DNA of 33,133 nt, from NCBI GenBank assembly GCA_017647975.1, contig JAGCJL010000095.1:1-33133 (forward strand). Reading direction: 5' to 3'. Made by a program: the position numbers and the translations under genes. Origin of the DNA: Bacteroidaceae bacterium (GTDB taxonomy: Bacteria; Bacteroidota; Bacteroidia; Bacteroidales; Bacteroidaceae). The notes under the pieces were generated by a model. The model was given only the letters and a program-made list of their open reading frames with translations, did no database searches and was not told the DNA's origin. Of this stretch, positions 7,390 through 20,241 are shown in pieces (within the stretch, counting starts at the first letter, position 1; each line of letters opens with the position of its first letter).

Positions 7390-7680
7390 TTACATACTTG
7401 CTTCGCTTATTATGCGTCTTTTCCTGTTGTTGCATGGAGTCGTGCTTATGCGTGTAGGTAACTGATGGTTGTAGCATATCCAAATGAGTATGGCCGTTGC
7501 CATTACGCGGTCGTCATGGTTTCCTTCTATCGCTCCCATTTCCTTGCCATTTTCTTTATATTCGTAAAGGTCGAGTTCGTATGTGGTTTCTAAGCACCGT
7601 TCTACATACAGTCCGTCACGTAGTGCCTTGATAAGGAAATTTATAACCATAGGCTTTGTGGAGCTGTTGGTGTGGAAGCC
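7390..7680 (-). pseudogene. C-terminal part of TerL, cut off by in-frame TGA
   Basis: These 96 codons continue the terminase frame directly after the TGA at 7683-7681, with no shift. They encode GFHTNSSTKPMVINFL, then IKALRDGL, and end with GNHDDRVMATA. In large terminases this is the last portion of the RNase-H-like nuclease domain, and its HDD supplies the third acidic metal ligand (D626/D627 in continuous numbering). An ATG inside (7650) could in principle start an 86-aa fragment, but this has no catalytic meaning alone. The sequence is otherwise undamaged, so the stop is recent, read through, or an assembly error. Confidence 0.8.
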
Positions 7681-9390
7681 TCAGCGACGCGGACGTCCTT
7701 GCTTGACTTCTTGAATAGAGGTCCGGCAGTAGAGATTGCTGTAACGCCCCGATATTTCGTTAAGTATATACTCAAAGTTATTACCTTCAGTACCTTCTGT
7801 TTCAAGAGTGTTCGCCTCAATTACCAATAGGGCATTGTCGTAGGCACGTGCTATCTCAACAGCTTTCCACGCAAGTTTGTCATGTTCTATGTGTCCATGC
7901 CAGCATGCAACTATTTCGGGAACTCCGCCGTCAAGCATAGCTATGCGGTCGGCAACGATTATACATGAGTAGTCGGCCTTGCTGCCTGTTCCACCTACAT
8001 CGACAGTTACAATATATCTGTCACGTATATTTTTATCATTGTCAGGCATTAGCCACACCGCAAGGTAGTTGCCGTCGTTCTTCTCACCTGCGGACAATGG
8101 CTCGAAAGAACTCTTTACTCCATCTTTATCTCTCTTTTCCACTATGTCACCTATGAATGTTGGTGGAACACAACTCTTTCTTATGTTCTCGACATAAGCG
8201 GTGCGGAACACTCTTCGTCCGGTGCTTTGGAATGCTTCATTGGCGGTGGAGGGAAATTCTGAGTAGAGACGCCACTCGTCGGGCATCTCAAGTCGTTTGT
8301 CGCGGTACCATGCAATGGCTTCAAGTGTCGCTCCCAGAGCAAAAAGACGGTGTTCATACTCATCCATACTATCAATGAACTCACCATATTTTTCAGCAGC
8401 TATGGGCTTGCTGTAAAGGTCTATACTGAACCAAGGAATAAATACCGGTGTAAAGTTGTTTCTTTTCTCGGTGGCTTCAATCCATGTGCGGTGAAAGAAG
8501 TTACCTACGCCTTTGGCTGTGGATTCTATGACCTTCATGGTATATGGTCCGCTGGCGATAGAACCGAAGATAGATTGTACAAGATCTTCGGGTTTACGTC
8601 CATGTGTGGCTTTCCACAGGCCAACCTCGGTGAGGTGTGCCATGCTTATGTCTTCGCTTCGCAGGGAGTCGGGTTTCTGTGCCGAACCCAGTGAATAACG
8701 GCTGTTGCTCCAGTTGATTACTCTTGTCTTTTGTGCTCCCTGATAGGGCGATGTGGTAAGCTGTTTGCCACCGGTTGCCCATTTGGGATATCGGCTTATC
8801 ACTTTTGCAAGCATGCCAGCTACTATTGATGACTGCTTCTCAATGTCGCCGCAGATTACGCTGTTCCAGTTACGTTTGTGTACAAGCTGAATCCACAGCA
8901 TGTACAGCTGTGTGAGGGTGGAGCCTCCCCATTGGCGTGCCTTGCACAGAATAATATCTATCGGGCGATTGCTGAGCCGTAATTCCTCCATTGCTTTGAG
9001 GTATATACGTTGTGGACGGTTAAGCGTAAAGGCGGTGTCACGTCCTTTGCCCTTGTCCGAAATGGTTGTCATGCTCCTTGCCCAATACTCAAAGTCATGC
9101 TTCATTCTCAGCAAGCAGAAATCGAGCCACAGCTTTATCATATTACGGTTGTTGGGTTCTGCATCAAGACGTTCTTGCAGAAAACCTACAGCTCCCAACT
9201 TGGTAAGTTCCTGTACAAACTCCTCGTTGCACATGCTTACAGGCAGGTACATCTTTTCAATGGGGAAATTCTCTATTCTAACCCATTGCCTTGCTACCGA
9301 GGTTGAGCCTTCGCCGGTTATAGGATTGTAAACGGCCGAGATTTCTCCCAGCCGTTTAGTGTTTTCAATTATAATAGATTCTTTAGTCAT
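7681..9390 (-). CDS. terL: Phage terminase large subunit (TerL), stops early
   Basis: This is the DNA-packaging motor ATPase and nuclease. The ATPase domain has a Walker A variant KARQWGGST (residues 150-158), a Walker B region MAHLTEV with Glu255, and a coupling motif STAKGVGN (290-297). The nuclease domain starts with VTVDVGGTGSKADY (Asp464) and LLVIEA (Glu525). The frame stops at codon 570 with TGA, yet the missing nuclease end continues in the same frame to 7390. The full protein would be 666 aa, a normal TerL length. As read, it keeps the ATPase but lacks the last nuclease ligand. It is the fourth gene of a minus-strand operon, 15 nt after the preceding gene. Confidence 0.9.
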   Translation of the reverse strand: MTKESIIIENTKRLGEISAVYNPITGEGSTSVARQWVRIENFPIEKMYLPVSMCNEEFVQELTKLGAVGFLQERLDAEPNNRNMIKLWLDFCLLRMKHDFEYWARSMTTISDKGKGRDTAFTLNRPQRIYLKAMEELRLSNRPIDIILCKARQWGGSTLTQLYMLWIQLVHKRNWNSVICGDIEKQSSIVAGMLAKVISRYPKWATGGKQLTTSPYQGAQKTRVINWSNSRYSLGSAQKPDSLRSEDISMAHLTEVGLWKATHGRKPEDLVQSIFGSIASGPYTMKVIESTAKGVGNFFHRTWIEATEKRNNFTPVFIPWFSIDLYSKPIAAEKYGEFIDSMDEYEHRLFALGATLEAIAWYRDKRLEMPDEWRLYSEFPSTANEAFQSTGRRVFRTAYVENIRKSCVPPTFIGDIVEKRDKDGVKSSFEPLSAGEKNDGNYLAVWLMPDNDKNIRDRYIVTVDVGGTGSKADYSCIIVADRIAMLDGGVPEIVACWHGHIEHDKLAWKAVEIARAYDNALLVIEANTLETEGTEGNNFEYILNEISGRYSNLYCRTSIQEVKQGRPRR

Positions 9391-9405
9391 AAGTCTTTGG
9401 TGGAT

Positions 9406-9882
9406 TTATATCCCGGCAAGGTTTGTTGAACGCCGTCTGAGTTTTTGTCTGTTGTATATTTTGGCAAACATCATTTGTACATTACTATATAGCACGCTTC
9501 GCAGTGATATGTTTGTCTGTGCCATTTCGGGCTTTACCGTCAGCAGCCAATGCATGTTTACATCATTGACGATATAGTCGCTTATGGCTTGTTTAAGCAT
9601 TGTCAGCAGGTGTTGTGGAGGAGTTGTTTCACTCTCAAAGGTTATAGTAATGTTTTCGGTGTCGGCATTGCTTGTTATTGAGGGGAAACGTACCGCGACA
9701 GTAGTTATCAACTCATTGCACGCCCTTTGCGTGAACATGAGCAATAGCTTCTCATCGTCATTGCTGCTTTGCATGGTGTCGGCGTTTATGTCATTGCGTT
9801 TGGCCGACTCTCCCATATAAAAGTTTCTTAAATCAATCTGCTGTCGCAGGTCGCTCCATTTTATTTTAATTTCAAAGTTCAT
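9406..9882 (-). CDS. Phage-module protein of 158 aa, copy A
   Basis: I do not recognise a named function. It is clearly related to the next gene upstream, with the same length. Both share a central acidic D-D-E-K/E-E-D-K stretch, the pattern I-x-D-[YF]-I ... W-[LM] ... K-P-[ED] in the last third, and a basic tail. It is predicted mixed alpha/beta, with no signal peptide or membrane segment. The gap to the upstream paralogue is 12 nt and to terL 15 nt, so it is co-transcribed with the packaging genes. A head-completion or connector role is a guess based on position. The two may act as a heteromer. Confidence 0.75.
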   Translation of the reverse strand: MNFEIKIKWSDLRQQIDLRNFYMGESAKRNDINADTMQSSNDDEKLLLMFTQRACNELITTVAVRFPSITSNADTENITITFESETTPPQHLLTMLKQAISDYIVNDVNMHWLLTVKPEMAQTNISLRSVLYSNVQMMFAKIYNRQKLRRRSTNLAGI

Positions 9883-9894
9883 GGCTATACATCG

Positions 9895-19512: not shown

Positions 19513-19552
19513 CAAATATAGGGTTAAAAAATTTAAATTGAGTTGTTGTTTT
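19513..19552 (-). promoter_or_regulatory. Candidate promoter of the minus-strand early genes
   Basis: On the minus strand AAAACAACAA (19552-19543) is followed after 22 nt by TATATTTG (19520-19513), matching the -7 consensus. The order and spacing copy those of the terminase operon promoter. Confidence 0.5.
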
Positions 19553-19566
19553 AGTCAAAATCTGCT

Positions 19567-19585
19567 ATTTAGATTGTGTCTAAAT
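19567..19585. promoter_or_regulatory. Inverted repeat close to the repressor start
   Basis: The arms ATTTAGA and TCTAAAT flank TTGTG, ending 26 nt before the repressor ATG. It is a plausible second operator for autoregulation or a leader hairpin. It is unlike the TAGCCA sites. Confidence 0.45.
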
Positions 19586-19611
19586 AATACTCTTGAGTAA
19601 CATATTTAACA

Positions 19612-20241
19612 ATGGGTAAAAGCATTAAAGAAAGAGTCGTTGAGATTTTCAAATATAAGAATCTGAATGTCAATAAGGCGAGTGCTGTTTTGGGAATTCC
19701 ACAACGTACATTGAATCGTCAGGTGAATGAAGCCGGAAAAATTACAATGGATTTGGTTTATGCTATTTTGGATTCTTTTCCCGAGGTCTCTCCTCTTTGG
19801 ATTTTGACAGGAGAGGGCTCTTTGCTTCGCGATGAAGAGCAGCAATCTAAAGATGGTTCGTCGCCATATTATCGTGATATGCCGGTGAGTGCCGGTTTGC
19901 GTGATGCTGTTGATGTTGCAAAAGAAAAACCTCAGGGTCGTATTTTGCTGCCTAAAAACAAAGCCGATTTCTATTTCCCTGTTACGGGTACTTCTATGGA
20001 GCCCGAGGTCTTTGAAGGTGACATTGTGGGTGTAACTCGTGTAAACTCCTATGAAAAGATTTCGTCAAGTAACATATATATGATTGTTACTAATGAGACA
20101 CGTATGATAAAGCATTGTTATCCCGATGATAACAATAAGGATATTTTATGGTGCGTATCTCCCAACTATCCTTCTTTCCCTGTTAAGAAAAGCGATATAT
20201 GTGCATTGTATCGTGTTGTAGCACGAATCCAATTCTTATAA
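19612..20241 (+). CDS. LexA/CI-like repressor with S24 self-cleaving domain
   Basis: This 209-aa cytoplasmic regulator has an N-terminal helix-turn-helix DNA-binding domain (about residues 1-65, with ASAVLGIPQRTLNRQV as the HTH core) and a C-terminal S24 peptidase/LexA-type domain. The self-cleavage machinery looks complete: scissile Ala94-Gly95 in PVSAG, nucleophile Ser128 in GTSMEP, and general base Lys167 in RMIKH. RecA-stimulated cleavage after DNA damage would therefore be expected. Upstream lie several palindromes including the TAGCCA operator. The stop is only 4 nt before atpD on the same strand with no terminator between, so the repressor appears to be the first gene of the ATP synthase transcript. 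Confidence 0.87.
   Translation: MGKSIKERVVEIFKYKNLNVNKASAVLGIPQRTLNRQVNEAGKITMDLVYAILDSFPEVSPLWILTGEGSLLRDEEQQSKDGSSPYYRDMPVSAGLRDAVDVAKEKPQGRILLPKNKADFYFPVTGTSMEPEVFEGDIVGVTRVNSYEKISSSNIYMIVTNETRMIKHCYPDDNNKDILWCVSPNYPSFPVKKSDICALYRVVARIQFL

Follow-up and report, generated by a model that had tools for sequence, protein, structure and literature searches.

The gene transfer agents RcGTA and CcGTA of Alphaproteobacteria consist of domesticated phage genes that are held under selection, occupy dispersed loci and are controlled at the level of the host. Here we analyze a block of phage-derived genes from a Bacteroidaceae bacterium that belongs to a module with the same features of selection, dispersal and host-level control, but in another phylum; RcGTA and CcGTA also differ from it in their siphovirus-like origin and their regulators. 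The block occupies positions 7,390 to 20,241 of contig JAGCJL010000095.1 (assembly GCA_017647975.1), which is contig C12 of a genome of 1.79 Mb in 95 contigs that is about 80% complete; the window denotes this whole contig of 33,133 bases.

The nearest described system is FpGTA of Faecalibacterium prausnitzii, which is predicted to be podovirus-like and includes genes for the large terminase subunit (TerL), portal, scaffold and capsid. The main operon is reported in all twelve Faecalibacterium genomes that were examined, and the genes are split between two loci, which one closed genome places about 125 kb from each other; fibre and lysis genes belong to the second locus (PMC12946183). The Bacteroidaceae module resembles FpGTA, as described there, in its podovirus-like prediction, genus-wide presence and split loci, whereas FpGTA belongs to Bacillota and is dispersed differently. 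Unlike the Bacteroidaceae module, FpGTA is presented there with no shared promoter box or S24 control (PMC12946183). For Bacteroides, the same paper reports lateral transduction rather than a gene transfer agent (PMC12946183), and our search of titles and the beginnings of abstracts in the open PubMed Central literature, with subscription papers and preprints outside its scope, found no gene transfer agent of Bacteroidota.

We conclude with high confidence that the block, together with a portal half located elsewhere, forms a domesticated, dispersed, phage-derived module. With good but lesser confidence, we interpret the block as the head, packaging and lysis half of a genus-wide module that works as a gene transfer agent; the job of this module would probably be the packaging and movement of host DNA. 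As expected of a gene transfer agent, the host genome contains phage-derived genes for head, packaging, portal and tail; these are present across the lineage and evolve under purifying selection, with partial agreement with the rpoB tree. The original prediction had left four options for the portal-less block: a decayed prophage, a satellite, a domesticated module similar to a gene transfer agent, or missing parts encoded elsewhere. The last two are upheld, given the portal on contig C80, whereas the satellite gained no support and decay applies at most to the TerL gene of this genome.

The portal half and the spread of the module

Searches of the frames of the block against PHROG and Pfam families detected no portal, integrase, replication gene, endolysin or fibre, in accord with the original prediction. 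A portal within the window was rejected as well, as the genome search placed it on another contig, at G000:C80:240-2093, where the gene matches the portal family phrog_156 and PF16510 (P22_portal, E 5e-34); the suggestion that a portal homologue be sought elsewhere in the genome thus proved productive. This gene is accompanied by a 1,509-aa (amino acid) internal-virion-like gene, a 193-aa gene and a divergent small gene, with genes that by inspection are nagA-like and aldolase-like farther along C80. The small protein divergent from the portal operon (L108:7572-7805), a possible regulator, is 65-84% identical among the matches listed and has no PHROG match.

The genus sample comprised 44 genomes, including that of the window (G000). 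The 43 capsid loci in named records, which correspond one to one with the capsid places in genus genomes, come from Bacteroidaceae or Bacteroidales metagenome-assembled genomes, most of them sampled from the ruminant gut. With the portal of the IMG/VR contig L032 as the query, a relative was found in 41 of the 44 genomes (all except G012, G015 and G027) and in all 11 genomes with at least 90% completeness and low contamination. The capsid protein matched in 43 of the 44, with an orthologue (at least 78% identity) in 42; none was found in G006, which is 63% complete, and G016 has distant copies only. TerL matched in 42 of the 43 other genomes, 41 of these at 72% identity or more, and a relative of the nozzle-like tail protein is present in 42 of the 44. 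The capsid orthologue and the portal occur together in 39 genomes, and one or both in all 44; the rpoB control exceeded its cut-off in 29 of the same 44 bins. Outside the genus, TerL matched in 6 of 76 relatives (28-44% identity), and in the rest of the family the capsid matched in 16 of at most 365 genomes, never above 40% identity. A single occurrence in neutral decay, which would have refuted the original prediction, is not what we found: almost every species sampled from the genus carries the block, its frames are intact and its ratio of nonsynonymous to synonymous substitution rates (dN/dS) is low.

Seen in isolation, a block without a portal might suggest a phage satellite that borrows the parts of a helper. 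However, the genome with the block also encodes the portal, which is retained with the block in those 39 genomes, and the block has no integrase or replication gene. A satellite similar to phage-inducible chromosomal islands would combine its own integration or replication genes with the virion of a helper, whereas here the virion genes, including the portal, are the module's own. A satellite is accordingly an extremely improbable explanation.

The two halves show preferred but variable chromosomal positions. At 17 of 30 portal loci, the gene next to the portal is ligA, and, as the proposed comparison with relatives bore out, atpD adjoins the S24 repressor gene in 14 of the 43 named capsid loci in addition to the window, although many loci of both kinds end too early to show these neighbors. 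The halves are contiguous in G018 and G030 (with one extra frame in the latter), flank the ATP synthase operon in G004, G014 and G022, lie about 107 kb apart on one contig in G002, and are found on separate contigs in the genome of the window, a dispersal by which a particle would be unable to move the full gene set. The nozzle gene occurs at a further locus in G002, G012, G024, G028 and G041, next to holin- and spanin-like genes in G028. Although the positions of the halves vary among genomes, the module is not patchily distributed in the manner of a temperate prophage, and the block lacks the integrase, replication genes and attachment (att) sites of one. The flanking att sites of a recent prophage, which had also been considered, did not materialize: because the longest exact repeat between the two searched flanks is only 12 bp, no att-like pair was apparent.

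The contiguous portal-to-TerL block of about 20 kb in G018, with a tyrosine recombinase at its edge, is what one would expect of a prophage or island that still moves as one unit. Nevertheless, a recombinase is found at only 4 of 30 portal loci, compared with 17 for ligA, and the halves are separate in other genomes. Moreover, because the G018 recombinase neighbors a DISARM-like helicase (below the NCBIfam curated cut-off), the simpler explanation in that genome is the insertion of a defence island. We find mobility as a unit hardly credible. Tyrosine recombinases of a single family border the portal gene on its 3' side in four genomes and TerL on its 3' side in a fifth (L105, L082, L079, L102 and L006). 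Defence-like genes also adjoin the portal, namely the DISARM-like helicase in G018 and a TIR protein in G014 and G010, and two adjacent GmrSD-type restriction genes (window 3405-7326) lie directly beside TerL. Given these neighbors, the module may offer sites at its ends where defence genes insert.

Related phages differ from the module in organization. The prophage G009:C6 and the IMG/VR contigs L031-L033 resemble the block (capsid 62-76% identity, TerL 58-63%) and carry the portal, or a portal-like gene, close to TerL. The G009 prophage itself (capsid 73-76%, TerL 58-60%, portal 55-60%) encodes a tyrosine integrase, a KilA-N antirepressor and a 4,176-aa internal protein, whereas the window block has neither integrase nor antirepressor. 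The Bacteroides temperate phages BF1-TP2, BS-TP4 and BKO1-TP3 are more distant (TerL about 39% identity) and are known as phage records of 64-68 kb, in contrast to the split chromosomal loci of the module. BF1-TP2 has relatives of the capsid, the adaptor and the candidate small terminase subunit (TerS), and an annotated portal directly after TerL. In the public record of BF1-TP2 (L034), the TerL homologue is labelled 'tail spike protein' although the note in the record names Terminase_6C, an apparent misannotation.

Genes of the block and selection acting on them

The genes are located where the original prediction had put them, in a leftward operon running from the TerS candidate through two paralogous accessory proteins to TerL and a rightward operon that begins with the scaffold-like gene and ends with the nozzle-like gene. 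Beyond the latter lie a leftward 123-aa gene and the rightward S24 repressor gene that adjoins atpD. The features are as follows.

7390..7650, minus strand: remainder of the TerL reading frame beyond the stop, including HDDR, the last nuclease motif
7681..9390, minus strand: TerL, shortened by the stop in this genome; PHROG terminase match, E 4e-17
9406..9882, minus strand: accessory protein 2, paralogue of accessory protein 1; alignment of 32 sequences
9895..10371, minus strand: accessory protein 1; phrog_19255, E 8e-9; the fastest-evolving gene of the block
10452..10892, minus strand: TerS candidate; phrog_27246, a PHROG of unknown function
10917..10932: palindrome TAGCC-N6-GGCTA at the TerS-TerL promoter, predicted operator for S24
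11210..11228, plus strand: late-promoter box TGTCATTTCAGCAACCTTG; exact match
11343..12125, plus strand: scaffold-like protein; phrog_22323 (unknown function), stands before the capsid gene
12167..13786, plus strand: major capsid protein; phrog_26635, weak SU10_MCP match
13867..14292, plus strand: conserved 141-aa protein; closed frame in all 43 found, including the G009 prophage copy
14283..14933, plus strand: SU10-type head-tail adaptor; PF24175 above cut-off
14961..15428, plus strand: holin; Phage_holin_4_1 just under cut-off
15358..15783, plus strand: spanin-like small membrane protein or lipoprotein; position and appearance of the sequence only
15830..18709, plus strand: nozzle-like tail protein; phrog_32516 and weak tail/virion PHROG matches
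19004..19375, minus strand: 123-aa gene with the second palindrome at its promoter, candidate activator; oriented divergently to S24 in 23 loci
19497..19512: palindrome TAGCC-N6-GGCTA, predicted S24 operator
19612..20241, plus strand: S24-type repressor with Ala-Gly cleavage site, Ser and Lys; PF00717 above cut-off

The host genes flanking the block encode ATP synthase, carbamoyl-phosphate synthase, xanthine phosphoribosyltransferase and a permease. Among the labels of the block genes, those of TerL, the S24 repressor and the adaptor are supported by family matches, with 28.4 bits against a Pfam cut-off of 27 for PF24175 in the adaptor. The capsid (SU10_MCP, 16.4 bits against 24.1) and the holin (Phage_holin_4_1, 20.8 against 22.2) fall below the Pfam cut-offs. 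The spanin and scaffold labels rest on position and architecture, the nozzle label on weak PHROG tail/virion matches, and TerS likewise stays a candidate. An alignment of 33 TerS candidate sequences points to 10892 as the likely start, rather than 10952. AlphaFold2 models of the TerS candidate (predicted local distance difference test score, pLDDT, 87.8) and of accessory protein 2 (pLDDT 88.9) had no match in the PDB at E of 0.001 or lower, and a weak SU10-tail row (E 1.5) from the fold searches of these two proteins was not used. The 123-aa gene had no family match.

The TerL gene of the window contains an in-frame stop at codon 570, is otherwise open to position 7390 and has its next stop at codon 667. 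Among the 41 orthologues, 40 are single open frames of 645-863 aa, and the remaining one (G033) is split between two contigs. The motor motifs are retained in all 31 TerL frames compared and HDDR in 30, the window's being the sole exception. The stop may represent a recent loss or an assembly error; if real, it would remove the last nuclease motif, so that packaging would probably be blocked in this one genome. Together with a few broken muramidase copies elsewhere, the stop is what could be adduced in favor of a decaying prophage remnant, and it had previously been taken as a sign of decay. For the genus, this argument fails: the frame is open in the 40 single-contig orthologues, dN/dS is low and the module is present genus-wide, which makes a decaying remnant highly improbable.

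The earlier argument that the intact structural frames reflect selection is borne out by the median pairwise dN/dS values (Nei-Gojobori, pairs with dS below 1.5). The capsid yields 0.068, TerL 0.110, the portal 0.118 and the nozzle 0.116 (from 2 pairs only), compared with 0.058 for atpD and 0.040 for rpoB as controls. Values are higher for the holin (0.164), S24 (0.202), the scaffold (0.266) and the adaptor (0.393), and highest for the 123-aa gene (0.487) and accessory protein 1 (0.593). With the exception of one scaffold gene, the block-gene matches in the fetched loci are closed frames, a count that covers only matches with at least 85% query coverage, below which frames cut by contig ends or divergence fall uncounted.

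Protein distances correlate with those of rpoB (Spearman 0.21-0.73, permutation P 0.001-0.023); the atpD Mantel control, with 6 shared taxa, was uninformative. The rpoB host tree is usable but weak, and because the rpoB of G010 proved misplaced, we present split counts both with and without this genome (G016, G020, G039, G042 and the G009 prophage copy being excluded from both). With all taxa, the capsid tree shares 7 of 23 splits with the rpoB tree (at most 5 in 500 label shuffles) and the TerL tree 6 of 18 (at most 2). After removal of G010, the shared splits rise to 12 of 22 for the capsid (best shuffle 3), 9 of 17 for TerL (3) and 7 of 18 for the portal (2). We read this partial agreement as mainly vertical descent, combined with exchange between species or chimeric bins.

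Regulatory sites and scattered genes

Two sequence signals recur at the promoters of the module. The palindrome TAGCC-N6-GGCTA, with at most one mismatch, is present in 20 of 34 intergenic regions between TerS and scaffold and in 18 of 23 between the 123-aa gene and S24, compared with a mean of 0.1 and a maximum of 1 in dinucleotide shuffles; it overlaps sequences that we take to resemble the Bacteroidetes -7 promoter element. The perfect form, TAGCCA-N4-TGGCTA, occurs at 21 distinct sites in 16 of the 44 genomes, against 5 for the reversed control, and 14 of the 21 are within 9 kb of a capsid gene. The genome of the window has three perfect sites, two of them in the block; the third lies outside it, at G000:C26:2894-2909. 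No palindrome was found in the G009 prophage or in L031-L033. The Ala-Gly cleavage site, Ser and Lys of the S24 protein are retained in all 23 sequences, and the palindrome at the TerS-TerL and S24 promoters is likely the site of this repressor, which, given the conserved cleavage signature, is likely SOS-responsive.

The second signal, the late box TGTCATTTCAGCAACCTTG, precedes the scaffold gene in 26 of 41 cases (up to 4 mismatches; 0.5% in shuffles), with a recurring CTTTGC after it, and the portal operon in 7 of 11 (none in 55 shuffles); at 4 of the 11 operons, two copies form an inverted repeat with a spacing of 52 bp. Sites with 4 mismatches were found once in the G009 stretch and once in BF1-TP2, and none precedes the G009 scaffold gene. 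Genome-wide, with up to 2 mismatches, there are 78 sites in 30 of the 44 genomes, against a single control site. By coordinates, 20 of these belong to the capsid operon, 23 to the portal operon and 35 were not placed in the block, although closer inspection puts one of the 35 (G027) within it.

For 32 of the 35 unplaced sites, the surrounding sequence was read. One stands before a GH108 muramidase with a peptidoglycan-binding domain, beside the CTP synthase gene of G035; others precede DUF6973 proteins (G004 and G029), a DUF4417 protein (G035), a 363-aa protein without a family (G022) and a 1,090-aa fibre-like gene in G012. The N-terminus of this fibre-like protein is common to copies in G002, G028 and G041, which show no clear late box; the G028 copy ends in a GDSL domain. 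Proteins of 2,200-2,330 aa that match part of the fibre query were assigned, from a visual reading of the neighboring sequences, to other prophages, probably long-tailed ones, and were not considered further. Sites within a 449-aa gene (three genomes) and a 424-aa gene (five genomes) were discounted as coding sequence, and many other sites have no gene start just downstream. Given these mixed surroundings, some of the extra sites are probably real members of the regulon and others are not. Relatives of the G035 muramidase (at least 53% identity) occur in 13 of the 44 genomes, two of them broken, and late-box control of all muramidases is not supported, as a box with up to 4 mismatches is found at only 3 of 20 frames of all kinds. 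Several of the lysin- or DUF6973-bearing proteins have in common a charged N-terminal stretch (EEFF..., EIEKEK...), seen in L238:3851-5164, L266, L268-L272 (GH108 frame starts) and L226:4637-5728, which may be a tag for particle loading or export.

The late boxes before muramidase and DUF6973 genes, and the charged N-terminus shared by several muramidase frames, fit a different role, in which the domesticated virion is kept for altruistic lysis, for killing relatives by particle-borne lysins or as a phage decoy, with DNA transfer absent or incidental. However, TerL, the portal and the adaptor are all under purifying selection, and the ATPase and nuclease motifs of TerL are conserved. A pure killing particle is disfavored because it would not need these three proteins, and we consider such a purpose unlikely.

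A candidate gene transfer agent of Bacteroidota

If the module functions as a gene transfer agent, its operation could be envisaged as follows. Upon DNA damage, the S24 repressor would cleave itself, freeing the palindromes at the promoters of TerS-TerL and the 123-aa gene. The 123-aa protein or another factor would then switch on the capsid operon, the portal operon and some of the scattered genes through their late boxes. Short-tailed particles would assemble and be loaded with host DNA by TerL, and the cell would be opened by the holin and a lysin encoded elsewhere. With its genes scattered in this way, the module would not travel as a whole, and the cargo of a particle would be host DNA.

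On balance, and more guardedly than for its parts above, we favor a fuller reading under which this is the first gene transfer agent of Bacteroidota. It would derive from an independently domesticated short-tailed phage that has become a scattered regulon, its genes for capsid, portal, nozzle, lysin and fibre each occupying a different position on the chromosome near the ATP synthase and ligA loci. Held together by a self-cleaving S24 repressor and one shared late box, this agent would move host DNA among ruminant gut bacteria.

Several observations weigh against this interpretation. The particles and packaged DNA of FpGTA have been demonstrated, according to the account cited above, whereas the Bacteroidaceae module is a prediction from genes. 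In the genome of the window, the stop leaves a TerL frame of 574 aa, a truncation common to none of the 41 relatives; no lysin was found there beyond a weak 38-residue match; and the far side of the portal is unseen because its contig ends 164 bases past the frame. A tyrosine recombinase abuts the portal in G018, G031 and, in part, G036 and G013 (the 4 of 30 loci noted above), and abuts TerL in G021. With all taxa, the splits shared with rpoB are no better than the best shuffle for the portal (2 of 19, best shuffle 2), the holin (4 of 16, 4) and S24 (2 of 11, 3), and after removal of G010, strong rpoB splits are still contradicted, most of all by the trees of the nozzle (6 of 12), the portal (5 of 9) and the holin (5 of 11). 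Furthermore, some members of the genus, mainly from the more distant clades, lack the palindrome and the late box or have degenerate forms of them, and at least 8 of the 35 unplaced late-box sites fall within two conserved coding genes.

In many gut communities, Bacteroidota are the dominant group, and they engage in heavy gene exchange. If the proposed interpretation is correct, the module would give direct access, through a readable regulatory code, to a route of gene flow in ruminant guts that is so far uncharted, and would show how a phage dissolves into the regulation of its host. The late box, in turn, offers a way to seek the missing parts of a dispersed domesticated virus beyond the reach of homology search.

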